A DNA stretch of 64,000 nt from Paracoccaceae bacterium (GTDB taxonomy: Bacteria > Pseudomonadota > Alphaproteobacteria > Rhodobacterales > Rhodobacteraceae). A model generated the notes under the pieces. It searched no databases. It was not told the origin of the DNA and saw nothing but the letters and a program-made list of their open reading frames with translations. The position numbers and the translations under genes were made by a program. The stretch is from the NCBI GenBank assembly GCA_002402045.2, contig NVUX02000074.1:124001-188000 (forward strand). Reading direction: 5' to 3'. Of this stretch, positions 27,274 to 56,301 are shown in pieces (positions within the stretch are counted from its first letter, which is position 1; the number at the start of each line of letters is the position of its first letter).

Positions 27274-27363
27274 AGATAGACCCTTCTTTGTAAGAATTGC
27301 TAACACTAAAGACAGAATATGTCACTTTTATTATGAAATACTGGCGCTATGCTGGGCAAGGAA

Positions 27364-28560: not shown

Positions 28561-28563
28561 TGG

Positions 28564-31343: not shown

Positions 31344-31443
31344 GCCCAAGAGCTTTGGGGCGGGTGTTAAGCCATCGCATGTGCTCCAATGTCGGAATTC
31401 CGGCCCCATTTAGATGGCATATAAAACTATCCCGGAGGATAAC

Positions 31444-32412
31444 ATGAATTTCAAATCATTAGCGATTGCGATGACCGTAGCCGGCACCCTGACTGGTGCG
31501 GCTTCAGCTCAAGAGCAAAGCTTTATTTCGATCGGCACCGGCGGCGTAACCGGCGTTTATTACCCAGCTGGCGGCGCGATCTGCCGTTTGGTTAACAAAA
31601 ATCGCCACGAAACCGGCATTCGCTGCTCGGTTGAGTCCACTGGCGGCTCTATTTACAACATCAACACGCTGCGCGCTGGCGAGCTTGAGTTTGGCGTTGC
31701 GCAATCTGATTGGCAGTTCCACGCTTATAACGGCACGTCTAAATTCGAAGACCAAGGCCCGTTTGAAGACCTGCGCGCCGTGTTCTCGCTACACCCTGAG
31801 CCGGTAACCATTTTGGCCCGTCGCGATAGCGGCATTGCAAACATCACCGACATTCCGGGCAAGCGCTTCAACATCGGCAATGCTGGCTCCGGCACGCAAG
31901 GCACATGGGAAGTGATTGAGGGCATCATGGGCTGGGAACGCTCAGACCTCGCGTTGGCTTCTGAAATGAAATCAGCCGAGACTGCTGGCGCACTTTGCGA
32001 CAACAAAATCGACGGTTACTTCTGGCTGGTTGGCCACCCTTCAGGCCTGACGCAAGAAACCATTGCTTCATGTGATGCGGTCATCGTACCTGCGGTTTCT
32101 CCTGAAATCACTGCACTGGTTGAGAGCACGCCTTACTACCGTATCGCGTCTATTCCGGGCGGCATGTATCCGGGCAACCCTGATGACATCCAGACCTTTG
32201 GTGTGGGCGCAACGGTTGTAACTTCGGCAAGCGTTTCTGACGAAGCTGTTTACCAAGTGGCTATGGCCGTGCTTGGCAACCTTGATGATTTCCGCAAGCT
32301 GCACCCTGCATTTGCAAATCTGGTAGCTGAAGAAATGATTTCGGACAGCCTTTCGGCACCTCTGCACCCTGGTGCAATTCGTGCCTACCAAGAACTAGGC
32401 TTGATGGATTAA
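31444..32412 (+). CDS. TAXI-family TRAP transporter solute-binding protein
   Basis: Signal peptide; SIGTGGVTGVYYPAGGAICRLVN; GELEFGVAQSDWQFHAYNG. Start 31444 preferred. Confidence 0.93.
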   Translation: MNFKSLAIAMTVAGTLTGAASAQEQSFISIGTGGVTGVYYPAGGAICRLVNKNRHETGIRCSVESTGGSIYNINTLRAGELEFGVAQSDWQFHAYNGTSKFEDQGPFEDLRAVFSLHPEPVTILARRDSGIANITDIPGKRFNIGNAGSGTQGTWEVIEGIMGWERSDLALASEMKSAETAGALCDNKIDGYFWLVGHPSGLTQETIASCDAVIVPAVSPEITALVESTPYYRIASIPGGMYPGNPDDIQTFGVGATVVTSASVSDEAVYQVAMAVLGNLDDFRKLHPAFANLVAEEMISDSLSAPLHPGAIRAYQELGLMD

Positions 32413-32430
32413 TCCACGCTTAACACTATC

Positions 32431-32454
32431 GGTGGGGGCTTTGCGGCCCCCACC
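32431..32454 (+). terminator. Intercistronic hairpin between TAXI SBP and permease
   Basis: GGTGGGGGC-TTTGCG-GCCCCCACC (9-bp perfect stem); no U-tract, so an mRNA-stabilising stem or attenuator is possible. Confidence 0.65.
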
Positions 32455-32506
32455 AACCCAAAGAAAATAAGGGCTTAAGCCCAGTTTCACAGCAAGGGAA
32501 AAACTG

Positions 32507-35128
32507 ATGAGTGATCAAACCAACGCAGAGTCTGCGCCCAAGGTAGATGTGGCGTCTTTTGCCGATCTTGATGTAGGCGCGCGTAATCCCGATAATTGGC
32601 AAGGTAAAATGCTGGCTGGTATCGCGCTGGCTTGGGCGGTTTTCCAAATATACACCGCCTCGATCCTGCCGTTTTACCTAAGTGAAATGACTGGCATCCG
32701 GCAGTTTGTGATCAACTCTGATAAAGAGCGCGCCATCCACTTGGCGTTTGCGCTGTTTCTGGCCTGTACGGCCTTCCCGCTGTTCAAGAAATCTCCGCGC
32801 AACCGAATCCCTTGGTATGATTGGCTCCTCGGCTTTGCCGGTGTTGCCGTGACGATGTATCTGGTGTTTAACCAGTCGGCCATTTCGCTGCGCTCTGGCC
32901 TGCCAACCACAATGGACCTTATTGTATCCGCCACCGGGCTAGTTATCGTTTTGGTCGCCACCTACCGCGCCCTCGGCCTGCCGATGGTTATTGTGGCCAC
33001 GTTTTTCCTTATCTACGTATTTTTCGGAGACCAGCAATTCATACCGGATGCTATCCAATGGAAAGGCGCCAGCTTTAATAAAGCGATGTGGCACTTCTGG
33101 ATGCAAACCGAAGGGGTGTTTGGGCAAGCGCTCGGGGTTTCGGCCTCTATGGTGTTCCTGTTTGTGCTTTTCGGCTCTTTGCTGGAAAAAGCTGGGGCGG
33201 GCAATTACTTTATTCAGGTTGCATTTGCGCTTATGGGTCACCTTAAGGGCGGGCCAGCTAAGGCGGCTGTTGTGGCCTCTGCCGCAACCGGTCTTATTTC
33301 CGGCTCTTCCATTGCCAACACGGTTACTACCGGTACATTCACCATTCCGCTGATGAAGCGGGTGGGCTTTTCGGCTGAAAAAGCTGGCGCGATTGAGGTG
33401 GCATCGTCTACCAACGGCCAGCTTACGCCCCCTGTTATGGGGGCGGCCGCATTCCTGATGATCGAGTATGTGGGCATTCCCTATATGGATGTGATCAGAC
33501 ACGCCTTCCTTCCGGCGATTATCAGCTATATTGCGCTGATCTATATTGTGCACCTTGAGGCCTGTAAAATGGGCCTAGAGGGCCTGCCGCGCCCCGGCGC
33601 ACCTAAAACCCGTTCGCAACGTTTAATGGGCTATGCCTTTGGTTTCCTTGTGTTCACGGCGCTGTCGATGGGCATTTATTATGGCCTTGGCTGGCTGAAG
33701 CCGATGTTTGGCGATTACACCATGTATGGCATGATGGTGGTCTTTTTGATCGCCTATCTGGTGCTGATCTATTGGGCCTCGAAATACCCTGATCTGGTGA
33801 TTGATGATCCGGATTCACCGTTGGTAAAACTGCCTGAAATTGGCCCTGTGGCCAAGACCGGCTATTACTATGCGCTGCCAGTTGTGGTGCTTATTTGGTG
33901 CCTGATGATAGAGCGGTTTTCGCCGGGGCTTTCCGCCTTTTGGGCCACAATCGCGATGCTGTTCGTTTCCCTTACGCAGCACGCGCTCAAAGCGATGTTT
34001 CGTGGCGGTAAAGACTTTATGGCCGGTATCGCCATTGGGTGGGGCCAGCTTATTGACGGCATGATCGCGGGGTCGCGCAACATGATCGGCATTGCGGTGG
34101 CCACCGGTACGGCGGGTATTATCGTTGGCACGGTTGGCCTAACGGGTGCGCACCTGATTATCGGTGAGTTCATCGAGTATATCTCGGGCGGGTCGCTGAT
34201 TCTCATGCTGATTTATGTGGCGATCTTCTCGCTGGTGCTCGGCATGGGGCTGCCAACTACAGCAACCTATATCGTGATCGTATCGCTCATGGCGCCGGTG
34301 ATTATTACTGTTGGTGCGCAATCGGGCCTAATTGTGCCACTGATCGCGGTGCACATGTTTGTGTTTTACTTCGGGATTTTGGCGGATGATACCCCGCCTG
34401 TGGGGCTTGCGGCCTTTGCCGCGGCGGCCATTTCTGGCGGAGACCCGATCAAAACCGGCCTCATCGGCTTTAGTTATGATATACGGACGGCAATCCTGCC
34501 ATTCCTGTTCATCTTTAACACCGAGCTGTTGTTGATAGACGTAACCCCCGCCAAAGCGGTGTTTGTGTTTCTTGTGGCGGTCGTTGCCATGATGCTGTTT
34601 GCGGCGGCCACTCAAAACTGGTGGCTCACCAAGAGCCGAATGTGGGAAAATTTCGCACTACTACTAATTGCGTTCACGCTGTTTAACCCCGGTTATTGGT
34701 TGGATAGGGTGGAAGCGCCTTACGTGGAAACAAACCCTGCGCAAATTGCGCAACTGGCCACAGAGGCGGATGATGACGGTGTGCTGCGCATTGTGGTGCA
34801 GGGGGAAAACTTCCGAACCGGAAAAATAACCACCACAACGGTGGAGCTGCCTTTGGGCGCCAAAGATTTTGGCGATGGCACCGCGCGGCTAAATAACTTC
34901 GCGGGTATTGCCTTTGCTGAAAATGATGGCACTTGGATTGTAGACAACATTGTGTTTGGCAAGGTTGCTCAAGACAAGGGTGTTGATCTTGATTGGGAAG
35001 TGCTGAAAGTAGAAGTGCCAGCCGAGCGGATATGGAAAGAAGTATTTTACATTCCGGCGCTATTGTTATTGGCATTCATTTGGTTCCAGCAAAAAGGCCG
35101 GATTCGTAAACAAGAAGAAATGGCCTAG
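32507..35128 (+). CDS. Fused TRAP transporter permease (4TM/12TM) with C-terminal DUF3394-like domain
   Basis: 873 aa, many TM helices; GLISGSSIANTVTTGTFTIPLMKRVGFSAEKAGAIEVASSTNGQLTPPVMGAAAF; AYHMFVFYFGILADDTPPVGLA-like region. Confidence 0.92.
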   Translation: MSDQTNAESAPKVDVASFADLDVGARNPDNWQGKMLAGIALAWAVFQIYTASILPFYLSEMTGIRQFVINSDKERAIHLAFALFLACTAFPLFKKSPRNRIPWYDWLLGFAGVAVTMYLVFNQSAISLRSGLPTTMDLIVSATGLVIVLVATYRALGLPMVIVATFFLIYVFFGDQQFIPDAIQWKGASFNKAMWHFWMQTEGVFGQALGVSASMVFLFVLFGSLLEKAGAGNYFIQVAFALMGHLKGGPAKAAVVASAATGLISGSSIANTVTTGTFTIPLMKRVGFSAEKAGAIEVASSTNGQLTPPVMGAAAFLMIEYVGIPYMDVIRHAFLPAIISYIALIYIVHLEACKMGLEGLPRPGAPKTRSQRLMGYAFGFLVFTALSMGIYYGLGWLKPMFGDYTMYGMMVVFLIAYLVLIYWASKYPDLVIDDPDSPLVKLPEIGPVAKTGYYYALPVVVLIWCLMIERFSPGLSAFWATIAMLFVSLTQHALKAMFRGGKDFMAGIAIGWGQLIDGMIAGSRNMIGIAVATGTAGIIVGTVGLTGAHLIIGEFIEYISGGSLILMLIYVAIFSLVLGMGLPTTATYIVIVSLMAPVIITVGAQSGLIVPLIAVHMFVFYFGILADDTPPVGLAAFAAAAISGGDPIKTGLIGFSYDIRTAILPFLFIFNTELLLIDVTPAKAVFVFLVAVVAMMLFAAATQNWWLTKSRMWENFALLLIAFTLFNPGYWLDRVEAPYVETNPAQIAQLATEADDDGVLRIVVQGENFRTGKITTTTVELPLGAKDFGDGTARLNNFAGIAFAENDGTWIVDNIVFGKVAQDKGVDLDWEVLKVEVPAERIWKEVFYIPALLLLAFIWFQQKGRIRKQEEMA

Positions 35129-35571: not shown

Positions 35572-36330
35572 ATGAAGCCAATGGTGATCGCTGCGCCAAA
35601 CGGGGCGCGGCGGGGTAAGGCCGACCATGTGAACTTGCCGGTGCGTATTGAAGAAATTGCAGCGGAAGCGGCACTTTGCCAAAAAGCAGGTGCTGCGGTG
35701 CTGCACCTGCATGTGCGCGATACCAACGGCGCGCATAGTCTGGATGCCGGGCTTTATCGCGCGGCGACAATGGCGATAGACGAAGCTGCGCCGGGGATGC
35801 TGGTGCAGATCACCTCCGAGGCGGCTGGGGTTTTTGATTTACCTGCGCAAATTGCCTGCGTTGAGGCCGTGCGGCCCAAGGCCGTAAGCGTTGCGTGGCG
35901 GGAATTTTCGCCCGAGGAAAACGCCGAGGCGCGGCGGTTTTATGCTTGGGCTTTGGGCGAGGGCATTCATGTGCAGCATATTTTGTACTCAATCGAGGAT
36001 ATCGCGAGGTTTAAGGCCTTTGGGCTTAAGGACCAAAGCGTGCTTTTGGTGCTGGGGAAATATGCCGGGGTAGAGGCGCGAACTGATGAGCTTCCCGCGT
36101 ATCTGGATGCGCTTGGCGATGTGCATGACTGGTGTGTGTGTGCTTTTGGCAAGGCTGAACATGCGGTGGTGAGCGCTGCGATTGCCGCCGGTGGCCATGC
36201 GCGGGTTGGCTTTGAAAATAACCTTTGGCGGCGGGATGGCACGCTGGCAGCGGGCACGCACGCGCTGGTGGCGCAGATTGAAAATGATGTTATGAGCGCG
36301 GATGAAGTGCGCGCATACTGGAGAATTTAG
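35572..36330 (+). CDS. BKACE-family (beta-keto acid cleavage enzyme, DUF849) protein
   Basis: GAAVLHLHVRDTNGAHSLDAG (Zn-binding HxH) and GGHARVGFENNLW motif. Confidence 0.88.
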   Translation: MKPMVIAAPNGARRGKADHVNLPVRIEEIAAEAALCQKAGAAVLHLHVRDTNGAHSLDAGLYRAATMAIDEAAPGMLVQITSEAAGVFDLPAQIACVEAVRPKAVSVAWREFSPEENAEARRFYAWALGEGIHVQHILYSIEDIARFKAFGLKDQSVLLVLGKYAGVEARTDELPAYLDALGDVHDWCVCAFGKAEHAVVSAAIAAGGHARVGFENNLWRRDGTLAAGTHALVAQIENDVMSADEVRAYWRI

Positions 36331-37659
36331 ATGGCAAATCATGTATTTCATCGCGCACCCGCCTTGATGCCGGAAGCGGCTTCGGGCGATGGTTGTTACT
36401 TAATAGATAGCACCGGCAAGCGCTATTTTGATGCCGGTGGGGCGGCGGTTTCCTGCCTTGGGCATAGTGATACCCATGTGACAAACGCGATTAAAGCACA
36501 GCTGGATGCGGTGGCTTTTGCCCATTCGGGGTTTTTTACCAGCGCCCCCGCTGAGGCTTTGGCCGATAAGCTGATAGAGCACGCGCCGGAGGGGATTGAG
36601 CGGGTTTATCTTGTGTCGGGTGGGTCGGAAGCGGTGGAAGCCGCAATTAAGCTGGCGCGGCAGTATTTTGTGGAAAAAGGCGAGCCTGAGCGCGGGCATG
36701 TGATCGCGCGTAAGCAAAGCTATCATGGCAATACACTGGGTGCGTTGAGCGCGGGTGGAAACGAGTGGCGGCGTGAGCAATTTGCGCCGCTTTTGCTGAA
36801 CATGACCCACATTAGCCCGTGCTATGAGTATCGCCTGCGCGGCGAGGCGGAAAGTGCCGAGGCCTATGGTCTGCGAGCGGCGGATGAGCTGGAAACAGAG
36901 ATTTTGCGCGTTGGAGCTGGGCGCGTGATGGCATTTGTAGCTGAGCCGGTGGTGGGGGCTACTTTGGGCGCGGTGCCCGCCGCGGTGGGGTATTTTGCGC
37001 GTATTCGAGAGATTTGCGACTGCTACGGCGTGCTGCTAATTCTTGACGAGGTTATGTGTGGCATGGGCCGCACCGGTACGCTTTTTGCCTGTGAGCAAGA
37101 GGGTGTGCGGCCTGATATTTTGACTATCGCTAAAGGGCTGGGAGCGGGGTATCAGCCTATCGGCGCGATGCTGTGCTCGGGCGAGATTTACCGAACCATT
37201 ACCGAAGGCAGCGGGTTTTTTCAGCATGGGCACACCTATATGGGCCACCCCGTGGCGGCGGCTTGCGGGCTGGCGGTGCTGGAGCGGATTGTGGATGATG
37301 GGCTGCTTGCGCGGGTGCGCGCCCTTGGTGAATATATGGAAAAGGCGCTGGTTTCGGCGCTGGCGCAGCACCCCAATGTGGGTGATATCCGCGGGCGTGG
37401 GCTTTTTTTGGGCGTGGAACTTGTGGCGGACCGTGCCTGCAAGGCGACCTTTGATCCAGCGCTAAAAATTGCCCCCAAAATTAAGAAAGCCGCGCTTGAG
37501 CGGGGATTGATGTGCTACCCGATGCAGGGCACGATTGATGGGCGGCATGGCGACCACGTGTTGCTCGCGCCGCCATTTATCATGAGCGAGGCCCAAGTGG
37601 ACGAGATGGTCGATATGCTGAAAGCCTCCATTTTGGACGTTTTGGCTGAAGCGCAGTGA
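36331..37659 (+). CDS. Class III aminotransferase
   Basis: GGSEAVEAAIKLARQY, SYHGNTLGALSAGG, LILDEVMCGMGRTGTLFACEQEGVRPDILTIAKGLGAGYQPIGAML (PLP Lys). Confidence 0.93.
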   Translation: MANHVFHRAPALMPEAASGDGCYLIDSTGKRYFDAGGAAVSCLGHSDTHVTNAIKAQLDAVAFAHSGFFTSAPAEALADKLIEHAPEGIERVYLVSGGSEAVEAAIKLARQYFVEKGEPERGHVIARKQSYHGNTLGALSAGGNEWRREQFAPLLLNMTHISPCYEYRLRGEAESAEAYGLRAADELETEILRVGAGRVMAFVAEPVVGATLGAVPAAVGYFARIREICDCYGVLLILDEVMCGMGRTGTLFACEQEGVRPDILTIAKGLGAGYQPIGAMLCSGEIYRTITEGSGFFQHGHTYMGHPVAAACGLAVLERIVDDGLLARVRALGEYMEKALVSALAQHPNVGDIRGRGLFLGVELVADRACKATFDPALKIAPKIKKAALERGLMCYPMQGTIDGRHGDHVLLAPPFIMSEAQVDEMVDMLKASILDVLAEAQ

Positions 37660-37682
37660 AGCTTCACAGCTCTTGAAGTAAG

Positions 37683-38708
37683 ATGCCGAAAGGAATGCTG
37701 ATGTTTGCAGTTGTTTTGAAAGAAGACGGATATTCGGGGCAGTCCACGGGGCCGCGCATTGAAAATGCGGCTGATTGGCTGGAAGCGGCCGAGCTGCCCA
37801 TGCCCAAGGCGGGCGCGGGGCAGGTGGTGGTTAAGCTGCGGGCGGCGTCGGTTAATCCGTCTGATCTGCATTTCATCAAAGGCGAATATGGCCAGCCGCG
37901 CATTCAGGGCGCTGCGGCGGGATTCGAGGGCTGCGGTGATGTGGTGGAAGCGGGCGCGGGGGCTGAAGGGCTGGTTGGAAAGCGGGTGGCTTTTGTGGCC
38001 GCGGCTTCCGGTGCTTGGGCCGAATTTGTGCTGTGCGAGGCGATGAACTGCATTCCGTTGCGGGCTGATATTTCGGATGATGACGGCGCGGCGCAAATTG
38101 TGAACCCGCTCACCGCTATGGCGATGGTGGATATTGCGGTGCAAGCCAAAGCGGGTTTGGTGATTTCGGCTGCCGCGAGCCAGCTTGGCAAGCTGATGAT
38201 AGGGCTGGCGCAGGAATTGGGGCTGGAAACCATAGCGCTGGTGCGCCGCGCCGAGGCTATTGCGCCGCTGAAGGCGCTGGGGGCTAACCGCGTGCTGGAC
38301 GTGACTTCGGCCAATTTTGCTGCCGATTTTAGCGCGGCCAGCCGCGCGCTCAAGCCGCGCATATTTTTGGATGCCGTGGCCGATCAAACCTCGGAACAGG
38401 TGTTTGCTAATATGCCAAACGGTGCGCGATGGGTGGTTTATGGCAACCTTGGTGCCAACCCGCCAGCGCTTACGCAAATTGGCCAGCTCATTTTTATGGG
38501 CAAGAAAATAGAGGGGTTTTGGCTGACAAACTGGATGCGCACCACCCCGGCCAAAGACCAAATGCGGGTGGTCGGCGAGGTGCAATCTCGCTTTGCGGAT
38601 GGCCGCTGGCGCACCGATATTGCGGCACGGATTGGCTTGAAAGACGTTATCGGTCAGCTTGCAGAGGCCACGCAGGTGAGCGACGGGAAGGTGATTATCC
38701 GGCCCTGA
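37683..38708 (+). CDS. MDR-family zinc-type alcohol dehydrogenase/quinone oxidoreductase-like protein
   Basis: KLRAASVNPSDLHFIKGEYG, AAGFEGCGDVVEAGAG, ISAAASQLGKLMIGLAQELG. Start 37683 or 37701. Confidence 0.85.
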   Translation: MPKGMLMFAVVLKEDGYSGQSTGPRIENAADWLEAAELPMPKAGAGQVVVKLRAASVNPSDLHFIKGEYGQPRIQGAAAGFEGCGDVVEAGAGAEGLVGKRVAFVAAASGAWAEFVLCEAMNCIPLRADISDDDGAAQIVNPLTAMAMVDIAVQAKAGLVISAAASQLGKLMIGLAQELGLETIALVRRAEAIAPLKALGANRVLDVTSANFAADFSAASRALKPRIFLDAVADQTSEQVFANMPNGARWVVYGNLGANPPALTQIGQLIFMGKKIEGFWLTNWMRTTPAKDQMRVVGEVQSRFADGRWRTDIAARIGLKDVIGQLAEATQVSDGKVIIRP

Positions 38709-45680: not shown

Positions 45681-47921
45681 ATGGATAAGCACCCTTTGAC
45701 CCGCACTCTTTTTATTCTTGACGAGCTATATCCCGCTGACCGTGGTGGCATTGGGCGGTTGATGTTTAATATTGTGCAGCACGCCAAGCAGGAAAACCCC
45801 GCGCTGGACTTGCACATTTTGCTGGGCAGGCCCAAGCCCGCTGATGCCGAGCCACTGGCCCAAGCCCTCGCGGGGGCAGCAAACGTGCACTATTTGGACG
45901 ATACCAAAAAGGTGTCTGAATGGCTGGGCATTGCCGATATTGCCAAATCTATCGCCACCAATCCGAGCCTGAATCAGCCATTTCAAAGTGGCTTGCGGGT
46001 GCTTGCCAGCGCTCTGAGTGTGCAAGAAAAAGTGGGCAAGTTTGACCATATCGAGATCCCGGATCATATGGGTATGGGGGCCGTGATGCTTATGGCGCGG
46101 GAGGCTGGGCTGGCCTTTCAGGAGGCCGAAATTACCTGCCGCCTGCACTCCAGCCTTTCGGCGATTTTATCGGTTGAGCCGTTTTTTCATGCACGAAGCG
46201 ACTGGATTGCACCGCGGGTTGAATTTGAGCGCTATAGCTTGCAGCATGCCGATAGAATTGTGGCGCATTTGCCTGCGATTGCGGCCTTTAACCATACTCA
46301 TTTTGGCTTTGGGCCAGCATGGATGGACAAGGTCGAGGTCGCCTTTCCGCCTGCTATTTGGCCGATTGAGCCGCAAGCGCCAAACCTTTTGCCGGACGCG
46401 CCAGATTTTATTTTTACCTCGCGGTTTCAGCCCTTTAAGCGCCCCGATTTGTTTATAAAAGCGGCCATCACCTTTTTGGATCAAAGCCCTGATTATGCGG
46501 GTAAATTCAGGCTGATCTCCTACGGGTTTAATGCGGAATATATTGACGGTCTGCGCCTTATGGTGCCTGAGCGGTTTCTTAATCGAGTGACATTTGAGGT
46601 TGATCTTTCTAGCGAAAAGCGTGCTGCTGCCATGGCGAAGGCCATCATTGTGCAGCCCTCCAGCTTTGAGAGCTTATGCGCGCTGGCCTACGAGGTGGCG
46701 GCCAATAAAAACCCCATCCTTTTAGCGCAAGATTGCGCGGCTTTTGGCGGGTTTGATCGCTGGATCGACGAGGAAAACTGCTTGCTGTTTGCGCTCACCC
46801 CAGCCGCGCTCGCCAATACCATGCGCAAGGCTATAAACTGGCAGCCAAGCCAGCGTGTAAATACCACCTCTGATCCCGCCTATTTTGCCCTGCCCGCGCA
46901 CCGCGCGCCCCAGCCGGCGGGCAGCAAGAGTGCAACCGTTTTGGTTGGCCCGCTTCAATCAGATGAAGACTTTGAGGCCTATCGCAATTTTGCCGCTCAA
47001 ACTGGCATATCGGCCTTTGGTTTCGCGGCTGCGCAATATAAGCGAGCGGGTTTTGACACGGTAAAATGGCTGTCTGAGGGGGATTATCAGGGCGCGCAAT
47101 TGCGGGATTTGGCGCAAGCGTTTGCGCTGGTCGTTCTGGCTAGCCCTAGGGCCTTGCCTAGCGCCGAATTTATGGTAGCAGGCACCAAATGTGTACGCCC
47201 CGGGCGCGCCTTTTCGTCCAATTCAAAAACCCCGGAGCAGCTCAATATTTATAGCGGGAAAATGCTGAGCCTGCTGGCCTCGGACCACCGCCCCTGCCCG
47301 CCCTGCCTTATGCTGCATCCAGACGATTTGGACCTGATCGCGCCAGATGACGACCATGATATCATTCTGAGGATGCTGGCACGGCTGGCGGAATCGCCCG
47401 TTGAACTGGTGCTTTCTCCTTTGCCATTGGTGCTGGAGCCTGCCCCGCTCGCGGCGCAAAAGCCAGACCGTCGGCTGCTTGGCTATGATAGATCGGGCCA
47501 TTGGCAAAACGGAATTCGTAAAATTGCGGTGGATGTTAAAACGGCTCGCCATACGCCTTTGTTAAAAGAGCAAAAAGCAACGGTTTCTACGGTCGCGGAT
47601 CTCAGCGCCTTAAGTATTTCGGCTGGAACGCCCACAGTGATCAGCCTTGATTTTAACCAGCATTTTTATGGTGAAATAATAGGTATTAAAATCGTAAATA
47701 CCACTAATACGCCGGTCACGGTTTCGTTGCATCGTGGCGATGTGGACGCGGCTTTGAGCGCACATAACAACGGAAAACAGCATCGTAAGTTTGCTCGCAA
47801 GCAAGGCTATATCGCACGGTGGGGCACAAATTGGGGCAGTGGTAAGCGGGTGCTTGTGGCCTCTGCGAGCGCTGACGCGGTGCTTGAAATTGAGCGATTC
47901 ACCCTGTTTTCACGGGAGTAA
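45681..47921 (+). CDS. Large glycosyltransferase-like protein (GT4-type N-terminal region plus unassigned C-terminal region)
   Basis: ILDELYPADRGGIGRLMFNIV N-terminus; FTSRFQPFKRPDLFIKAA; IIVQPSSFESLCALAYEVAANKNPILLAQD (GT-B acceptor/donor-like motifs). 746 aa. Confidence 0.7.
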   Translation: MDKHPLTRTLFILDELYPADRGGIGRLMFNIVQHAKQENPALDLHILLGRPKPADAEPLAQALAGAANVHYLDDTKKVSEWLGIADIAKSIATNPSLNQPFQSGLRVLASALSVQEKVGKFDHIEIPDHMGMGAVMLMAREAGLAFQEAEITCRLHSSLSAILSVEPFFHARSDWIAPRVEFERYSLQHADRIVAHLPAIAAFNHTHFGFGPAWMDKVEVAFPPAIWPIEPQAPNLLPDAPDFIFTSRFQPFKRPDLFIKAAITFLDQSPDYAGKFRLISYGFNAEYIDGLRLMVPERFLNRVTFEVDLSSEKRAAAMAKAIIVQPSSFESLCALAYEVAANKNPILLAQDCAAFGGFDRWIDEENCLLFALTPAALANTMRKAINWQPSQRVNTTSDPAYFALPAHRAPQPAGSKSATVLVGPLQSDEDFEAYRNFAAQTGISAFGFAAAQYKRAGFDTVKWLSEGDYQGAQLRDLAQAFALVVLASPRALPSAEFMVAGTKCVRPGRAFSSNSKTPEQLNIYSGKMLSLLASDHRPCPPCLMLHPDDLDLIAPDDDHDIILRMLARLAESPVELVLSPLPLVLEPAPLAAQKPDRRLLGYDRSGHWQNGIRKIAVDVKTARHTPLLKEQKATVSTVADLSALSISAGTPTVISLDFNQHFYGEIIGIKIVNTTNTPVTVSLHRGDVDAALSAHNNGKQHRKFARKQGYIARWGTNWGSGKRVLVASASADAVLEIERFTLFSRE

Positions 47922-48665
47922 CGGCATGCCTTTCGGGTCATTCAGCTCAAGCGGAAAGCGCTGCGGAACAAGCCCGGCATGGAACCAGTTTACCAGCGTA
48001 AATATTGAATAAACCGGCAGGCCGGTCAGCTTGCGGATATCGGCGGCGTAGGGCGTCATGTTTGTGCATTCCAGCACAATCGCGCCAATATCGTCATGAA
48101 GCTCAACCAAACTGCGTGCTGCATCGAGCAGATCAAGCCGGCAATCGGAGAAATCTATGCTCGGTTGGTCATCTAAAATACCGTGGGTAAAGGCGCGGCC
48201 CTGCTCGGTGCCAACCACCGGTGTATCCAGCGGTGCGCCGGCGGCTTTTAGGTGGGCCTCTGTTAGCGAGGTTGCGGAAATCGTGAGGGTGCCAACGCGT
48301 TTTCCTGGGGGCAGCATGGCTTGCACCATCGGAATTTGCATGAGGCTGGAGGTGGCCACGGGCACAGGCACGGCCTCGGAGATTTTATCCTGAATCAGTG
48401 CCAAAAACCCGCAATTTGTGGTTAGCCCGTCGCAGCCATGCGCCACAAGGTCTTTCGCTGCGGCAATAAAATCATCGACTAATTCTAAGGGGTTGCCACG
48501 CACGACCTTATCGGGCGTGGCCCCGCGCACAATCCGGTATTGCACCGGAAAATCCCATGTATTGGCATTGGCAATATCGCCGTAAATGCGCGGAAACTGA
48601 GTTTCCAGCATCATAATGCCAATATTGGCTCCAAAAACGGTTTTTCCGCCATATTCAACGCTCAT
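47910..48665 (-). CDS. Aspartate/glutamate/hydantoin racemase family protein
   Basis: GCDGLTTNCGFLALIQ and AIVLECTNMTPYAADIRKLTGLPVYSI (two Cys motifs). Start 48665 preferred over 48803. Confidence 0.85.
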   Translation of the reverse strand: MSVEYGGKTVFGANIGIMMLETQFPRIYGDIANANTWDFPVQYRIVRGATPDKVVRGNPLELVDDFIAAAKDLVAHGCDGLTTNCGFLALIQDKISEAVPVPVATSSLMQIPMVQAMLPPGKRVGTLTISATSLTEAHLKAAGAPLDTPVVGTEQGRAFTHGILDDQPSIDFSDCRLDLLDAARSLVELHDDIGAIVLECTNMTPYAADIRKLTGLPVYSIFTLVNWFHAGLVPQRFPLELNDPKGMPLLP

Positions 48666-48666
48666 T

Positions 48667-49359
48667 TCACCCCTCCTCGGGCACATATAATTTTGAAAAC
48701 GCGATTCGCACCGCCTCTGCGGTTTCTTCACGCCGCCGCTCGATATGGCCCCGAATCGCCTTGATGGCCGCGTCCTCATCCCGCGAGGCAACGGCCTCGA
48801 CAATCCGGCGATGCGCGCTCAGCTGGCCCGCCTTGCTTTTGGGGGCGCTGCGCAAAATTTCGAGGTTAATAAGGCGCACATATCGAATGCGGCCATTGAT
48901 ATTATTAAGCATGTTTATCAGCTCGGCATTGCCCGCAAGCTCGGCCAACCTATGGTGAAATTCCTCGTCCATTTCCAGCAGCTTTGAGAGATCAGCGCAG
49001 CTTTCATAATCCGGCTCTATTTTGTCGAGATATGCGCTTAGCGCCTCGATTTCGGCATCTTTGGCCCGTGCCACAGCACGGCGCACGGCCTCGGTTTCTA
49101 TCGCTTGGCGGGCCTCGTAAAGCTCGCTAATGCGCGTGGGGCTAAGGGCACGGCAAAAGAAGCCGCGGCCCATTTTGAAGGTCAAAAAACCCTCGGCCAC
49201 CAGCCTGTTTAGCGCCTCGCGCAGGGGCGTGCGGCTGGCCCCGAGCTGCACAGCAAGCACACTTTCGTTCAGCCGTTCCTCGGGTTTAAATTCAAATGCG
49301 ATCGCCATTTCACGCAGGCGCTTATAGGCTTTATCAACGCTACTGATGTGCTTGTTCAT
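48667..49359 (-). CDS. GntR family regulator with FCD domain
   Basis: ESVLAVQLGASRTPLREALNRLVAEGFLTFKMGRGFFCRALS wHTH; C-terminal FCD-like FHHRLAELAGNAELINML...HRRIVEAVASRDEDAA. Start 49359 or 49407. Confidence 0.92.
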   Translation of the reverse strand: MNKHISSVDKAYKRLREMAIAFEFKPEERLNESVLAVQLGASRTPLREALNRLVAEGFLTFKMGRGFFCRALSPTRISELYEARQAIETEAVRRAVARAKDAEIEALSAYLDKIEPDYESCADLSKLLEMDEEFHHRLAELAGNAELINMLNNINGRIRYVRLINLEILRSAPKSKAGQLSAHRRIVEAVASRDEDAAIKAIRGHIERRREETAEAVRIAFSKLYVPEEG

Positions 49360-49430
49360 GCCGGCCTCAAAAAATGTCTTCACATCTAAATACTTTGCTG
49401 TATACAATTTGTAAACGGGAATTTTAGAAG

Positions 49431-51125
49431 GTGTTTCAGGTGGATAACCAGCTCAACGGCGCGGAAGCGATGGTCAAAATGCTTGAGGCCCATGGGGTGC
49501 AGCATATTTTCGGCCTGTGCGGCGATACAACGCTGCCTTTTTACGATGCCATGCGCGAGTTACCCCACAATATCACCCATGTGCTGACGAGGGACGAGCG
49601 CTCGGCGGGCTATATGGCGGATGGCTATTCGCGGGTAACGGGGCGCGTGGGTGTGTGCGAGGGGCCGTCTGGTGGCGGGGCAACTTACATTTTGCCGGGG
49701 CTGATCGAGGCCAGTGAAAGCAGCTACGCGGTGCTGGGGATTACCACTGATATTTCTGTGGGTAGCTACGGAAAATATCCGCTGACCGAGGTGGACCAGG
49801 AGGCGCTTATGCGCCCGCTGACCAAGTTTAACACAGTTATAAAGCAGGCCGCACATATTCCGCGCATGGTGCGAAAAGCCTTTCGGGCCATGACCACGGG
49901 CCGCCCCGGTGCGGCGCATTTGGGCCTGCCATATGATATTCAGTATGACGCGGTAGAGGTGTCTGATATTTGGGCTGATGAGGCTTTGCAAACCTATCCC
50001 GCCTACCGCGTTGGCCCCGAAGCGGGCGCGGTTGAGGCTGCGATTGACGCGATACTTTCCGCTAAAAATCCGCTGATCGTTTGCGGTGGTGGTGTGGTGA
50101 TTGCGGGCGCTATGGAGGCGCTCAACCAGCTTTCCACCCGTCTTGATATCCCCGTGGCCACCTCGATTTCCGGCCAAGGCTCGCTGGCCGAAACCAACCC
50201 GCAATGCCTTGGGGTGGTTGGCTCTAACGGGGGCACCGACGAAACATGGGAGATGATGCAAGCCGCTGACTTGGTTGTGTTTATGGGCGCACGAGCTGGC
50301 TCCACCACCACGTCTCGCTGGGAGGCGCCGAGCGCGGCCACGCGGGTTGTGCATTTTGATAGTGATCCGATGGTGATCGGCGCGAATTACCGCACCGAGG
50401 TCGGCGTGGTTGGTGATTTGCGGCTCAGCCTTGAGGCGGTTAATGCCGCGCTGGATAAGCGCGCGGCCAAATCCTTTGGCGGGGCGGCGGTCATTGCGGA
50501 TATCAAAGCCCGCAAATTTGCCCGCTTTAACCAGCTTGCCAATAGCACTGAGCACCCTATTCGCCCCGAGCGCGTAATTGCTACTCTGCAAAAACTGCTG
50601 CCAGAAGACGCGACGATCCTCAGTGACCCCGGCACTAGCTGCCCCTATTTCTCAGCTTATTACCAGCTGCCCAAGGCAGGGCGGCACTTTATTACCAACC
50701 GTGCCCACGGCGCACTTGGCTATGCTATGTCGGCCTCTTTAGGTGCGTGGTTCGGGCGGCCTGAAAGCAAGGTTGTGGCCATGATGGGCGACGGCTCTTT
50801 TGGCTTTACGGTGGGCGAGCTGGAAACGATAACCCGCTATAAGGCCCCGATTACGTTTATCGTGTTTTCAAACGCCGCATTTGGCTGGATTAAAGCCAGC
50901 CAGATGGCGGATAAGGACTCTCGCTATTATAACGTGGATTTTAACCGCGTGGACCAAGCCGCCGTGGCCGCCGCTTATGGCGTAAAATCATGGCGGGTGG
51001 AAAACCCAGAAGAGCTGGAAAGCATCATGAAACTTGCCCTCAAGCATGACGGCCCGACCCTGATAGACATTATTACCCAGCCCTTGGAAGAGGCCAACGC
51101 GCCTGTGCGCCGGTGGATGGGATGA
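49431..51125 (+). CDS. Thiamine pyrophosphate-dependent enzyme (acetolactate synthase-like family), substrate unknown
   Basis: LTRDERSAGYMADGYSRVTG Glu motif; MMGDGSFGFTVGELETITRYKAPITFIVFSNAAFGW TPP/Mg motif. Confidence 0.92.
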   Translation: MFQVDNQLNGAEAMVKMLEAHGVQHIFGLCGDTTLPFYDAMRELPHNITHVLTRDERSAGYMADGYSRVTGRVGVCEGPSGGGATYILPGLIEASESSYAVLGITTDISVGSYGKYPLTEVDQEALMRPLTKFNTVIKQAAHIPRMVRKAFRAMTTGRPGAAHLGLPYDIQYDAVEVSDIWADEALQTYPAYRVGPEAGAVEAAIDAILSAKNPLIVCGGGVVIAGAMEALNQLSTRLDIPVATSISGQGSLAETNPQCLGVVGSNGGTDETWEMMQAADLVVFMGARAGSTTTSRWEAPSAATRVVHFDSDPMVIGANYRTEVGVVGDLRLSLEAVNAALDKRAAKSFGGAAVIADIKARKFARFNQLANSTEHPIRPERVIATLQKLLPEDATILSDPGTSCPYFSAYYQLPKAGRHFITNRAHGALGYAMSASLGAWFGRPESKVVAMMGDGSFGFTVGELETITRYKAPITFIVFSNAAFGWIKASQMADKDSRYYNVDFNRVDQAAVAAAYGVKSWRVENPEELESIMKLALKHDGPTLIDIITQPLEEANAPVRRWMG

Positions 51126-52360
51126 GCCAGCCAATACTTGTAATCGGTGCCGGAATTGTGGGCATTTCAACGGCTATCTGGCTGCGGCGTGCGGGCAAAG
51201 AGGTGCTGGTGCTTGATCGGGCTGAGGTGGGCATGGGCACATCTTATGGCAATGGCGGGGTGTTAGCCGCGTGTGGCATGGTGCCGGTTACATCTCCGGG
51301 CATGCGCGCCAAAGGGCCCAAGCTGTTGCTAGATAAAAACTTCCCGCTTTATCTGCGCTGGCCTTACCTGCCGCGCCTATATCCGTGGCTGCGCAAATAT
51401 CTCAGCCATGCCAATGACGCCGACACCCGCCGCATTGCCAAAGGGCTAACGGAGATAACGGGAGATAGCATTGAGCAGCATTCGGCGTTGCTTAGGGGCA
51501 CGACGGCTGAAAATTGGCTGACCCATAGCGACTATACGTTTGCCTATAAAGACCGCGCGGCGTTTGAGGCTGATGCCTATTCTTTTGGTTTGCGGGCCGA
51601 GGCGGGGTTTACGCCCGAAATCATCGAAGGCGCCGCAGTGCAGGAGTATGAACCGGCGCTCAGCAAAGAAACGACCCTGCTGGCTGTGATGAAAAACCAC
51701 GGGTATATCAAAGATCCGGGCGGCTATGTGCAGGCTTTGGCTGAGGTGCTAAAGGCTGAGGGCGGCGAAGTGCGCCAAGCCGAGGTGAAGGATTTTGAGC
51801 TGGTCGAAGGGTGTGTGAAGGCTGTGATCACTGATCAAGGCCGGATGGAATGCGAAACGGTTGTGCTAACAACGGGTGTTTGGTCTAAGCCGCTTATGAA
51901 AAAGCTGGGGCTTAATATCCCGCTGGAAAGTGAGCGCGGCTATCATGTGGTGTTTAAAAACCCCAGCCAAACCTTGCGAAATCCGTTCATGATAACGGCC
52001 GGAAAATTTGTGGCCACGCCTATGGCGGGCGGCTTGCGCTGTGCGGGTATTGTCGAATTTGGCGGGCTAAAGGCTGGCCCTTCCAAGGCCCCGCTCGAAT
52101 TTTTGTATCGCAAAGTAAAAGAGACTTTCCCCGAGCTTGAATATGAGAGCACCGAGGAATGGCTGGGCCACCGCCCCGCCCCGTCTGACAGCTTGCCACT
52201 GATCGGGCAGGTTGGAGAAACCGGTATTTATACGGGCTTTGGCCACCACCATATTGGCTTGACAGGCGGCCCGAAAACGGGCCGAATGCTTGCAGATATC
52301 ATCGCCAATAAAAGAAGTAACAGAGACTTCACGGCGTTTGATCCGATGCGTTTTACTTAA
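51122..52360 (+). CDS. FAD-dependent oxidoreductase, DadA-like (D-amino-acid dehydrogenase family)
   Basis: ILVIGAGIVGISTAIWLRRAGKEVLVLDR; GYHVVFKNPSQTL; GFGHHHIGLTGGPKTGRMLADII. ATG at 51122 overlaps upstream stop (ATGA). Confidence 0.9.
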   Translation: MSQPILVIGAGIVGISTAIWLRRAGKEVLVLDRAEVGMGTSYGNGGVLAACGMVPVTSPGMRAKGPKLLLDKNFPLYLRWPYLPRLYPWLRKYLSHANDADTRRIAKGLTEITGDSIEQHSALLRGTTAENWLTHSDYTFAYKDRAAFEADAYSFGLRAEAGFTPEIIEGAAVQEYEPALSKETTLLAVMKNHGYIKDPGGYVQALAEVLKAEGGEVRQAEVKDFELVEGCVKAVITDQGRMECETVVLTTGVWSKPLMKKLGLNIPLESERGYHVVFKNPSQTLRNPFMITAGKFVATPMAGGLRCAGIVEFGGLKAGPSKAPLEFLYRKVKETFPELEYESTEEWLGHRPAPSDSLPLIGQVGETGIYTGFGHHHIGLTGGPKTGRMLADIIANKRSNRDFTAFDPMRFT

Positions 52361-52384
52361 ACCAGAATCCTTGGGAGGATTAAC

Positions 52385-53359
52385 ATGACAAAGAAACTAA
52401 CACTCGCGGCTGTGGCCGCAGGCGTGGCGCTCGCGGGCGCAGCCGGGGCTGAAACATGGGACTTGCCCATGGCGTATTCGGCCACCAACTTTCACTCGGC
52501 CGTTGGCACCGAGTTTGCCCAATGCGTAACCCTTGGCACCGGCGGGGCGCTTACGCTGACCGTTCATGCTGGCGGCTCGCTGTTTGCTGGCGGTGAAATT
52601 AAGCGTGCCGTGCAAACCGGACAGGTCAACATTGGCGAGCGCCTGCTTTCGGGCCACCAGAACGAAAACATCCTGTTTGGCTATGATTCGATCCCCTTCC
52701 TTGCCACCTCGTTTGAGGATAGCGAGCGCCTGTTTGAAGCCGCCAAAGGCCCGCTGAATGCCGTGCTGGAAGCGCAAAACCTGAAGATGCTTTATTCGGT
52801 GCCGTGGCCTTCACAGGGGTTGTATTTTAACCGCCCGATTGAGTCGGTTTCTGAAATGGCGGGCATTAAGTTCCGTTCTTATAACGCCGCAACCGCGCGT
52901 TTGGCTGAGCTAACGGGCATGTTGCCAGTTTCTATTGAGGCGGCTGAAATTAGCCAAGCCTTTGCTACGGGCGTTGCCGAATCCATGATCAGCTCTGGTT
53001 CTACGGGCTATGACCGTAAGGTCTGGGAAAGCCTGACTCACTTCTATGATGTGCAAGCATGGCTGCCGCGAAACTATATGCTGGTGAACCTTGAGGCTTG
53101 GAATGGCCTTGATGAAAGCACGCAAAACGTAATGACCGGCTGTGCCGGCGTGGCAGAATATGCCGGTGATTGGCGCTCGATTGAGTATAGCGGCTTTACC
53201 CTGAACAAGCTTGCTGAAAACGGCATGTTTGTTGGCCCAGCAGGTGAGCAACTTGCTGGCGAGCTGCGCGAAATTGGCGCAACGATGACAGCCGAATGGC
53301 TGGAAAAAGCTGGCGCTGAAGGCCAAGCCATTATCGACGCCTATAACGCCGGTAACTAA
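52385..53359 (+). CDS. TRAP transporter substrate-binding protein DctP
   Basis: Signal peptide; GEIKRAVQTGQVNIGERLLSGHQNE; GIKFRSYNAATARLAELTGMLPVSIEAAEISQAFATG. Confidence 0.93.
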   Translation: MTKKLTLAAVAAGVALAGAAGAETWDLPMAYSATNFHSAVGTEFAQCVTLGTGGALTLTVHAGGSLFAGGEIKRAVQTGQVNIGERLLSGHQNENILFGYDSIPFLATSFEDSERLFEAAKGPLNAVLEAQNLKMLYSVPWPSQGLYFNRPIESVSEMAGIKFRSYNAATARLAELTGMLPVSIEAAEISQAFATGVAESMISSGSTGYDRKVWESLTHFYDVQAWLPRNYMLVNLEAWNGLDESTQNVMTGCAGVAEYAGDWRSIEYSGFTLNKLAENGMFVGPAGEQLAGELREIGATMTAEWLEKAGAEGQAIIDAYNAGN

Positions 53360-53367
53360 GTAGTTTC

Positions 53368-53400
53368 CCGCCCCCGCAGCTTGCGGGGGCGGTTTTATTT
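53368..53400 (+). terminator. Intrinsic terminator/attenuator between dctP and dctQ
   Basis: CCGCCCCCGCA-GCT-TGCGGGGGCGG (11-bp perfect stem) followed by TTTTATTT. Confidence 0.85.
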
Positions 53401-53413
53401 ATGGGGGGGGACT

Positions 53414-53935
53414 ATGGGTAAGTTTTTACGAAAATCGCTGGATAAACTCTATCTGGCATCGGGCATTTTGGCCTCGCTGTTTTTGATCGCCATTCTGGGC
53501 TTGATCGTGCTGCAAATGGTGGCCCGCTGGACCGGCGAAACCTTTCGCGGCGCGCCAGATTACGCAGGCTATGCTATGGCGGCATCGTCTTTCCTTGCGC
53601 TGGCTTATGCGCTGAATGCAGGCGCGCATATCCGCGTTTCCCTGCTGCTCACGGCCCTTGGCCGCTATCGCCGTTTGGGTGAAATTTGGTGTTTTGGTGT
53701 TGGCACATTCCTAAGCTGGTTTTTTGCCTATCATGCCATAAAGATGACCCACGGCTCGTACCGCTGGAACGATATTTCCCAAGGGCAAGACGCCACGCCG
53801 ATGTGGATTCCGCAAAGCCTGATGAGCCTCGGCGTGATCATTCTTGCCATTGCTTTTGCCGACCATCTGGTGCGGCTTATTTTCGTCGGGTCTCACAATA
53901 TTAAAGAAGAAGCGCTTGATGCGCACGTGGAGTAA
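53414..53935 (+). CDS. TRAP transporter small permease DctQ
   Basis: Four TM-like segments; YALNAGAHIRVSLLL; location between dctP and dctM. Confidence 0.92.
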   Translation: MGKFLRKSLDKLYLASGILASLFLIAILGLIVLQMVARWTGETFRGAPDYAGYAMAASSFLALAYALNAGAHIRVSLLLTALGRYRRLGEIWCFGVGTFLSWFFAYHAIKMTHGSYRWNDISQGQDATPMWIPQSLMSLGVIILAIAFADHLVRLIFVGSHNIKEEALDAHVE

Positions 53936-53938
53936 ATC

Positions 53939-55252
53939 ATGGATGAATTTGCACTGATCGGGGTATTCCTCTTTGTTCTATTCCTGTTGCTTGGCACGGG
54001 TGTATGGGTTGGCCTCGCGCTGTTTGGCGTGGCGTATTTGGGCTTGGAAATGTTCAGCCCTGCCCCCGCAGGCGAGGCCATGCTGACCCGTATCTGGACC
54101 GGCTCCTCAAGCTGGACGCTAACCGCGCTGCCGCTATTTATTTGGATGGGTGAAATATTATTTCGAAGTCGATTATCGCAAGATATGTTTCGCGGGCTGG
54201 CCCCGTGGATGGCGGGGTTGCCCGGCGGCCTCGTCCATACCAATATCGTGGGCTGCACCATTTTTGCTGCCGTTTCCGGCTCCTCGGCGGCTACGCTCAC
54301 CACCGTTGGCAAAATGTCTATTCCTGAGCTGCGCAAGCGTGGCTACCCTGAATATATGATCATCGGCACCCTCGCGGGCGCGGCCACCCTTGGCCTGATG
54401 ATCCCGCCCTCGCTCACGCTTATTGTTTACGGCGTTTCGGTGGAGGAATCCATTTCTAAGCTCTTTATGGCGGGCATTCTGCCGGGCATCGTGCTGGCGG
54501 GCATGTTTATGCTTTATGTTGCCGGTTGGTCTTGGGTGCGCCCGCATGAAGTGCCCAAAATCTCGAACAAGATGACCTTTCGTGAAAAGCTGGCCGAAAG
54601 CCGCTTTCTTATCCCGATTGTGCTGCTGATTGTGGCCGTGATCGGCTCTATGTATGCCGGTTGGGCCACCGCCACCGAGGCCGCCGCGATTGGCGTGATC
54701 GGCTCGCTTACGCTGGCCTTCATTCAAGGCTCGCTGAGCTGGGAGGCCTTTTCCCAAAGCCTGCTCGGCGCCACGCGCACCTCGGCCATGATCGCGCTCA
54801 TTCTGATGGGGGCCACCGCGCTCACACTGGCTATGGGCTTCACGGGCCTGCCGCGCGCCTTGGCGGAGTATATTGGCGGCCTCGGCCTGTCAAAATTCTC
54901 GCTGCTGATGGCGCTGATGCTGTTTTACATCGTGCTGGGCATGTTCTTGGATGGTATCTCATCTGTGGTGCTGACAATGGCCATTGTGCAGCCGATGGTG
55001 ATGCAAGCGGGGATCGATTTGATTTGGTTTGGTATCTTCATTGTGGTGGTGGTTGAAATGGCGCAAATCACGCCGCCCATCGGGTTTAACCTGTTTGTGA
55101 TGCAGGGCATTACCAAACACGAAATGGGCTATATCGCCAAAACCGCCTTGCCGCTTTTTGCGATCATGGTGCTGATGGTGTTTATCTTGATCTGGTTCCC
55201 CGGGCTGGCTACATATCTGCCTGATAATATGCGAAACGCCGCAGGCGGCTAG
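53939..55252 (+). CDS. TRAP transporter large permease DctM
   Basis: FAAVSGSSAATLTTVGKMSIPELRKRGYPEYMIIGTLAGAATLGLMIPPSL; VVEMAQITPPIGFNLFVMQGI. Confidence 0.95.
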   Translation: MDEFALIGVFLFVLFLLLGTGVWVGLALFGVAYLGLEMFSPAPAGEAMLTRIWTGSSSWTLTALPLFIWMGEILFRSRLSQDMFRGLAPWMAGLPGGLVHTNIVGCTIFAAVSGSSAATLTTVGKMSIPELRKRGYPEYMIIGTLAGAATLGLMIPPSLTLIVYGVSVEESISKLFMAGILPGIVLAGMFMLYVAGWSWVRPHEVPKISNKMTFREKLAESRFLIPIVLLIVAVIGSMYAGWATATEAAAIGVIGSLTLAFIQGSLSWEAFSQSLLGATRTSAMIALILMGATALTLAMGFTGLPRALAEYIGGLGLSKFSLLMALMLFYIVLGMFLDGISSVVLTMAIVQPMVMQAGIDLIWFGIFIVVVVEMAQITPPIGFNLFVMQGITKHEMGYIAKTALPLFAIMVLMVFILIWFPGLATYLPDNMRNAAGG

Positions 55253-55260
55253 GCAAAGAA

Positions 55261-55288
55261 TAGCCCCCGCAGTTGCCTGCGGGGGCTA
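55261..55288. terminator. Bidirectional terminator between dctM and rpsU
   Basis: TAGCCCCCGCA-GTTGCC-TGCGGGGGCTA, 11-bp perfect stem. Confidence 0.8.
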
Positions 55289-55611: not shown

Positions 55612-56301
55612 ATGGCCAAACGCAAATCAGAGCAAGACCATATGGATGAAGCCAAACGCGCCGTGATTGACGCCGCGCTGCCGCATGTGATGTTTGACGG
55701 CTGGTCAGACACGACCCTTGCCGCCGCCATTACCGATTCGGGCGTAGAAGCTGGCCTCGCCAAGCTCGCCTTCCCCCGTGGCCCGCTTGATCTGGCGCTG
55801 GGCTACCATTACCAAGGCGATGCCGACATGCGCGCCGAAATGGCCGCGCTTGATCTGGCCTCAATGCGCTATTCCGAGCGTGTCGCCAAAGCCATTTCGC
55901 TGCGTCTTGCGTTGGCCGATAAAGAAGCCGTGCGCCGCGCCATGGCGTTTTTTGCCCTGCCACATAATATGGGCGACGGCACGCGGGCGTTGTGGCATAC
56001 GGCTGACGCGATCTGGGAAAGCCTCGGCGACACCTCACGCGATTATAACTGGTATACCAAACGCATGACGCTCAGCGCGGTTTACTCGGCCTGCGTACTG
56101 TTCTGGCTTGGCGATGACGCCGATGAAACCGAGGCGTTTATTGACCGCCGCATTGCCAACGTGATGAGCTTTGAGAAAACCAAAGCCAAGTTTCGGAGCA
56201 GCCCGCTGGGTAAACATTTTTCCAACACATTCGGCAAGGTGCTTGACCATATCAACGCCCCCGAAGCCCCGGATGACCTTCCGGGCAAAATACACGAATA
56301 G
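55612..56301 (+). CDS. COQ9 family protein
   Basis: ALPHVMFDGWSDTTLAAAITDSGVEAGLAKLAFPRGPLDLALGYH; WYTKRMTLSAVYSACVLFWLGD. Confidence 0.9.
   Translation: MAKRKSEQDHMDEAKRAVIDAALPHVMFDGWSDTTLAAAITDSGVEAGLAKLAFPRGPLDLALGYHYQGDADMRAEMAALDLASMRYSERVAKAISLRLALADKEAVRRAMAFFALPHNMGDGTRALWHTADAIWESLGDTSRDYNWYTKRMTLSAVYSACVLFWLGDDADETEAFIDRRIANVMSFEKTKAKFRSSPLGKHFSNTFGKVLDHINAPEAPDDLPGKIHE

Follow-up and report, generated by a model that had tools for sequence, protein, structure and literature searches.

A conserved gene set for a TRAP transporter, a racemase-family protein, a flavoprotein and a thiamine diphosphate enzyme in a Paracoccaceae bacterium, tentatively linked to a pyroglutamate-type ring amino acid

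Gene content and layout of the locus

The locus discussed here occupies positions 47910-55252 of a stretch of 64,000 nucleotides (the window) from the genome of a Paracoccaceae bacterium. All seven of its genes were confirmed: those of a racemase-family protein and a GntR-type regulator lie on the minus strand, and those of a thiamine diphosphate (TPP) enzyme, a DadA-like flavoprotein and the DctP, DctQ and DctM components of a tripartite ATP-independent periplasmic (TRAP) transporter follow one another in this order on the plus strand. The divergent arrangement, with the racemase and GntR genes facing the TPP enzyme/DadA-like/DctPQM operon, had been proposed from inspection of the DNA alone (the sequence-only reading) and was borne out by domain searches.

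On the minus strand, the gene of the racemase-family protein (47910-48665; 251 residues; matches to PF01177 and NF005679), a member of the Asp/Glu/hydantoin-racemase superfamily and a proposed 2-racemase/epimerase, is separated by 1 nt from that of the GntR/FCD transcriptional regulator (48667-49359; 230 residues; PF00392 and PF07729). On the plus strand, the gene of the TPP enzyme of the acetolactate synthase superfamily (49440-51125; GTG start; 561 residues; PF02776, PF00205 and PF02775) overlaps by 13 nt that of a DadA/HypO-like FAD-dependent D-amino-acid dehydrogenase (51113-52360; 415 residues; PF01266). The overlap and the 1-nt gap indicate that each side forms a tight transcription unit. 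The solute-binding protein DctP, of the pyroglutamate-binding TRAP subfamily (52385-53359; matches to 6wgm and 2pfz), is followed by the small membrane subunit DctQ (53414-53935; PF04290 and the translation) and by the large one, DctM (53939-55252; PF06808, and TIGR00786 above its cut-off).

Three starts were moved inward by comparison with close, near-identical homologues (racemase, 48665; GntR, 49359; TPP enzyme, 49440, the open reading frame as listed beginning at 49431); the longer racemase reading frame would overlap the GntR gene by 137 nt. For DctQ, the ATG at 53414 is probably the start rather than the listed TTG at 53381. Between the DctP and DctQ genes, an 11-bp G+C hairpin followed by TTTTATTTAT (53368-53392, plus strand), with a T-rich tail, is a probable attenuator or partial terminator, and could allow more of the binding protein than of the membrane subunits to be produced. 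A second G+C hairpin, of 12 bp, lies after DctM near the operon end (55261-55288) and has a T-run on its minus side only.

Conservation of the set and its regulation

Bacterial genomes were scanned with the TPP protein, which yielded 80 loci, and the sample was completed with annotated plasmid loci. The counts given here refer to 89 loci whose TPP enzyme has an identity of at least 55%. Genes for the racemase-family protein are found in 71 of them, for GntR in 69, for the flavoprotein in 50 and for the TRAP transporter in 45; all seven genes are present in 37, which span Rhodobacterales, Hyphomicrobiales and gammaproteobacterial (Granulosicoccaceae) bins, with the understanding that the loci are kin by descent and the counts are not of independent events. 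The seven-gene set is real and conserved, more than chance would give, and the enzyme trio recurs behind other importer families. Among 248 genomes sampled from the host's family, 47 have an orthologue of the TPP enzyme, and Roseobacter MED193 and Pseudovibrio are examples of cultivated bacteria with the complete set. Optional members of the 45 TRAP-type loci are an enolase-superfamily gene (21), a LysR gene (27) and a gene which we take to encode a bile-acid-symporter-like protein (22). In other loci the genes that come after DctM show no relationship to each other, and a group of apparent neighbours in several roseobacters (c20-c27) was set aside as a shared insertion site not reflecting function, as these look like housekeeping genes.

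A sigma-70-like promoter for the TPP operon (TTCACA-N18-TACAAT, 49379-49408, plus strand) was identified by consensus match only, at 10 of 12 positions. Its -10 element is overlapped by the palindrome TGTATACA (49399-49406), a putative operator of which the window holds this single copy (expected, 0.13). The same palindrome is present in each of the 28 divergent GntR/TPP spacers that were parsed by the script, to which the count is confined, and 28 of the 31 copies in the 530 kb of those loci fall within the spacers. Its position in the spacer that separates the regulator from the operon, shared by different species, is what would be expected of the palindromic operator of a GntR/FCD-regulated operon. 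Lack of co-regulation by the GntR protein, which would have undermined the sequence-only reading, is contradicted by this conservation, and GntR would act as a repressor. A wider regulon was also considered on the basis of an extended pattern, NTGTATACARTN, which occurs three times in the genome, twice beyond the cluster, among open reading frames that look like cytochrome-oxidase and aconitase genes. The count is no higher than that of the reversed control, so that the further sites were treated as chance and the regulator looks local.

The importer and the three enzymes

The best matches of DctP among structures of the PDB are 6wgm (E=2.5e-103), 2pfz (6e-81) and 2pfy (4.6e-68), the next one being at only 2.5e-12, and the same three take Foldseek ranks 1-3 with the structure model of the protein (predicted local distance difference test, pLDDT, 87). 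The PDB titles describe 6wgm as "specific for pyroglutamate" and the Bordetella DctP6/DctP7 receptors, a pair discussed in PMC5812351 and PMC12344293, as "binding pyroglutamic acid". The nearest relatives in both sequence and fold are, thus, pyroglutamate-bound receptors, which places DctP in the DctP6/DctP7/6wgm subfamily. Furthermore, in 12 other loci carrying the same cluster DctP shares 78-84% identity with the metagenomic 6wgm. Residues R164, S204, G208, A225, P228 and N230 are invariant in the cluster DctPs and in those linked to 5-oxoprolinases, in agreement with a predicted carboxylate-binding role of the Arg, around which the subfamily motifs FRSYN, SSGSTG and AWLP.N are found. Relatives at 40-50% identity adjoin 5-oxoprolinase genes (pxpBC, pxpBCA [pxpABC] or OplAH-type). 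Because the receptor is of the pyroglutamate type, the cargo is likely to be a five-membered-ring acid and not a generic or sulfonated amino acid. Receptors of this type are also found in Paracoccus aerodenitrificans (L125:5184-10817), with a metallo-β-lactamase (MBL)-fold hydrolase and an L-2-hydroxyglutarate oxidase, and on a Thermus plasmid, with an MBL gene; these neighbours hint that the compound taken up is 2-hydroxyglutarate gamma-lactone, the oxygen counterpart of pyroglutamate.

The racemase-family protein belongs to the Asp/Glu/hydantoin racemase superfamily, as indicated by a PF01177 match above cut-off, the two-domain fold and two Cys residues, C85 and C200, which are invariant in 54-57 aligned homologues. 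Its AlphaFold2 model (pLDDT 94.8) best matches hydantoin racemase 2eq5 and MurI/glutamate racemase (template-modelling score, TM, 0.55-0.6), and it is remote from MurI (12-20% identity; TM 0.5-0.6). Clues to its role came from Rhizobiales. Agrobacterium pusense and Bosea have a racemase relative, 42-44% identical to that of the window, together with an amino-acid ATP-binding cassette (ABC) transporter, the flavoprotein and the TPP enzyme; in Shinella WSC3 its slot, next to the same kind of ABC transporter, flavoprotein and TPP enzyme, is taken by an enolase-superfamily protein 43.5% identical to the roseobacter one. The flavoprotein and the TPP enzyme are constant (mutual identity of 70-74% and 89-92%, respectively). 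The racemase and enolase superfamilies have in common the exchange of a proton next to a carboxylate, and the finding of two unrelated folds in one slot suggests that inversion at such a position is the chemistry they share here. From this exchange a racemase activity on the imported substrate is proposed, and the order racemisation, oxidation and TPP-dependent reaction gains support. The enolase-superfamily partner (L071:5946-7070; L149:5479-6600) is of the family of structures 3i6t and 3i6e, labelled muconate cycloisomerase, for which the cluster context suggests a racemase/epimerase role. Its identification with cis-3-hydroxyproline dehydratase was discarded (117 bits versus a cut-off of 500), and no orthologue was found in the host genome (best match, 27%).

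The flavoprotein falls within the wider DAO family (PF01266) and below the cut-off of the DadA NCBIfam model (PRK00711; 171 bits versus 383), with 36% identity to the D-amino-acid dehydrogenase of a hydroxyproline-type cluster of Rhizobium etli. Oxidation of an epimerised D-imino acid by an enzyme of the D-amino acid oxidase (DAAO) family has been described (PMC4113996). The TPP enzyme resembles the acetolactate synthase/glyoxylate carboligase (Gcl) superfamily in its three domains and in its nearest PDB matches, BbmA (260 bits) and Gcl (228 bits), but differs from these enzymes in scoring below every NCBIfam cut-off listed (acetolactate synthase, glyoxylate carboligase, sulfoacetaldehyde acetyltransferase and 5-guanidino-2-oxopentanoate decarboxylase); for the L111 orthologue the Xsc-type model gives 248 bits versus 620. 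It also keeps a catalytic-type Glu, in an RDER sequence that aligns to HEEG of BbmA and is invariant in 25 sequences, whereas Gcl is without the catalytic Glu. The seven other TPP-enzyme matches of the host genome are only 26-29% identical to it, so that it is not the housekeeping acetolactate synthase. Clear orthology to a characterised enzyme, which, for a substrate that could not derive from an amino acid, would have told against the sequence-only reading, was therefore not found among NCBIfam models and PDB matches.

A proposed route and its alternatives

The sequences show which genes are present, the subfamily of the importer, the conservation of both operator and gene set and the exchange of racemase families; the role of GntR as a repressor, the order of the steps, the identity of the substrate and the TPP reaction and its product are inferred. 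The reading we favour, with a confidence that stops just short of even, is that of a locally regulated operon for the catabolism of an amino acid with a five-membered ring, most likely pyroglutamate (5-oxoproline) or a compound of that type. Release of the GntR repressor from the TGTATACA operator would switch the operon on, and the DctPQM transporter would import the ring acid, the C2 of which would be inverted by the two-cysteine racemase-family protein. The DadA/HypO-like flavoprotein would then oxidise the D-form to a cyclic imine or 2-oxo acid (2-oxoglutaramate, in the case of pyroglutamate), to be decarboxylated or carboligated by the TPP enzyme. The sequence-only reading had put forward a similar route of import, racemisation, oxidation and TPP-dependent conversion; the logic of its last three steps holds up well with the racemase/enolase swap, but its generic amino-acid cargo has been revised to a pyroglutamate-type ring acid. 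In its most specific, and doubtful, form the proposal is that pyroglutamate (or D-pyroglutamate) is degraded oxidatively and with no hydrolysis: the lactam would be racemised, its C2 would be oxidised with the help of flavin to give 2-oxoglutaramate, and TPP-dependent decarboxylation or carboligation would follow, the three steps taking the place of the ATP-driven 5-oxoprolinases. To our knowledge, the only known bacterial pyroglutamate routes use 5-oxoprolinase. A conserved marine operon that joins a pyroglutamate-type importer to these three enzymes would provide a second such route, or else point to a ring amino acid so far overlooked among marine nutrients, and the cluster offers a likely physiological context for the metagenomic structure 6wgm and for 3i6t/3i6e.

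No described pathway matched the set, and literature searches on the gene set, 6WGM and BbmA/CsmA yielded nothing relevant. The closest parallel is the catabolism of trans-4-hydroxy-L-proline, with its import, C2 epimerisation by a 2-epimerase and oxidation of the D-imino acid by the DAAO-family cis-hydroxyproline oxidase, homologous (36%) to the cluster flavoprotein (PMC4113996), followed by the Δ1-pyrroline-4-hydroxy-2-carboxylate deaminase and the α-ketoglutarate semialdehyde dehydrogenase. However, the epimerase of the cluster is of the Asp/Glu-racemase or enolase superfamily, a TPP enzyme replaces the deaminase and a pyroglutamate-subfamily TRAP system the ABC importer; among the cluster genes of the window there is neither an epimerase of the proline-racemase superfamily nor a deaminase of the dihydrodipicolinate synthase family. 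Systems for pyroglutamate uptake and hydrolysis (DctP6/DctP7-type TRAP with PxpABC or OplAH) have the same receptor subfamily and importer type, but 5-oxoprolinase in place of racemase, flavoprotein and TPP enzyme, and an importer-linked 5-oxoprolinase is missing from the cluster of the window and was not observed as a recurrent member of its siblings. The absence of these defining genes sets the cluster outside both pathways, as a variant of the epimerase/D-amino-acid-oxidase kind. In the D-arginine/2-ketoarginine route the flavoprotein DauA is followed by the TPP decarboxylase AruI, a succession of FAD-dependent D-amino-acid dehydrogenase and TPP-dependent 2-oxo-acid decarboxylase like that proposed here; importer and racemase are other, and the TPP enzyme reaches 301 bits with the 5-guanidino-2-oxopentanoate decarboxylase model, versus a cut-off of 500.

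Several observations weigh against a pyroglutamate-type substrate or against the proposed sequence of steps. The DctP of the window is only 55% identical to 6wgm, and the cluster DctPs share an invariant GER...S.H.NE motif, not present in the 5-oxoprolinase-linked relatives, which could mean altered specificity or a modified ligand. The pyroglutamate of the crystals may be a carry-over from the E. coli expression host, in which case the receptor may naturally bind an analogue of the ring. We know of no DAAO-fold enzyme that oxidises a lactam. The host genome encodes an unlinked OplAH-type 5-oxoprolinase (L145:8592-12329) among housekeeping genes, and no importer was observed next to it; PxpA was not found in this genome. 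Racemase and TPP-enzyme genes occur with neither flavoprotein nor TRAP genes in R. pomeroyi, and with the TRAP but not the flavoprotein genes in locus L044. Approximately 20 loci have both a racemase and an enolase-superfamily gene, which means that one does not always stand in for the other. Finally, the TRAP-type operons examined lack a recurrent downstream enzyme, such as an amidase or an aldehyde dehydrogenase.

Some of these points would suit a cyclic secondary amine (proline, hydroxyproline or another pyrrolidine carboxylate), converted by the racemase to the D-form and by the HypO-like enzyme to the pyrroline-2-carboxylate, whose open 5-amino-2-oxo form the TPP enzyme would decarboxylate to an aminoaldehyde. 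The GER/H motif of DctP, the similarity of the flavoprotein to the hydroxyproline-type enzyme, the precedent for the first two chemical steps (PMC4113996) and the pyrroline-5-carboxylate reductase (ProC) genes that adjoin the racemase gene in six loci can all be so explained, the latter fitting an imine theme that has also been counted for the pyroglutamate-type proposal. We regard such a cargo as unlikely, since the solved receptor from this cluster type is titled as specific for pyroglutamate, a neutral lactam and not a charged amine. The occurrence of the racemase gene in 27 of 44 non-TRAP loci, along with the R. pomeroyi arrangement, could also mean that the racemase-family protein works with the TPP enzyme, as a two-gene module of their own, on a single central intermediate supplied by flavoprotein and TRAP transporter from one of several sources; the racemase-family protein would then not be the entry racemase. 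The racemase gene lies within the transporter/flavoprotein operon in Rhizobiales and in loci with a tripartite tricarboxylate transporter (TTT), which makes this rather improbable.

The 1245-residue OplAH-type protein and the modelled Asp/Glu racemase fold could, instead, point to a detour in which pyroglutamate is hydrolysed to L-glutamate by the 5-oxoprolinase encoded elsewhere and the operon makes D-glutamate and then 2-oxoglutarate for the TPP enzyme. There is little to recommend it, given that the TRAP-type clusters examined showed no 5-oxoprolinase, that the racemase-family protein is so distant from MurI and that the detour is energetically pointless beside transamination. Slighter still is the likelihood of an acyclic or sulfonated cargo, such as cysteate, converted through sulfopyruvate to sulfoacetaldehyde. 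The racemase family and an aspartate-dehydrogenase-like gene of other cluster types would suit an aspartate analogue, and distant versions of the cluster use amino-acid ABC, TTT or TRAP-associated extracytoplasmic immunogenic (TAXI) importers, but the TRAP receptor is of the pyroglutamate-binding subfamily and recurrent sulfonate genes were not observed in the cluster. The amino-sulfonates contemplated by the sequence-only reading are unlikely.

In the TTT version (L111, L094-L098 and L074) the racemase-flavoprotein-TPP trio and GntR form a conserved set with PrpD-family, aspartate-dehydrogenase-like and short-chain dehydrogenase/reductase (SDR) genes. The trio is associated with a TAXI-TRAP transporter in Leisingera, and amino-acid ABC systems also accompany it, including those of Rhizobiales. 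The substrates of these variants may be related, and for the variants themselves an acyclic amino acid stays under consideration. The SDRs that adjoin the TPP enzyme in the TTT type and in Shinella are 40% identical and may act on its product. An iminodisuccinate reading of the TTT clusters was abandoned: the PrpD-family protein scores best against iminodisuccinate epimerase, but homologues of IRG1/cis-aconitate decarboxylase score approximately the same.

Outside the set, the locus is flanked in the window by genes for a glycosyltransferase (45681-47921) and COQ9 (55612-56301). Farther away, at 27349-35128, a class III CoA-transferase, another TPP enzyme, a TAXI-type TRAP receptor with fused permease and a 3-sulfinopropanoyl-CoA desulfinase (647 bits versus a cut-off of 600) are encoded beside a LysR gene, and this TRAP-linked set probably handles 3-sulfinopropionate or a related organosulfur acid. 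The genes that follow it at 35572-38708, for a β-keto-acid cleavage enzyme (BKACE), a class III aminotransferase and a zinc-type alcohol dehydrogenase, possibly belong to another amino-acid pathway.

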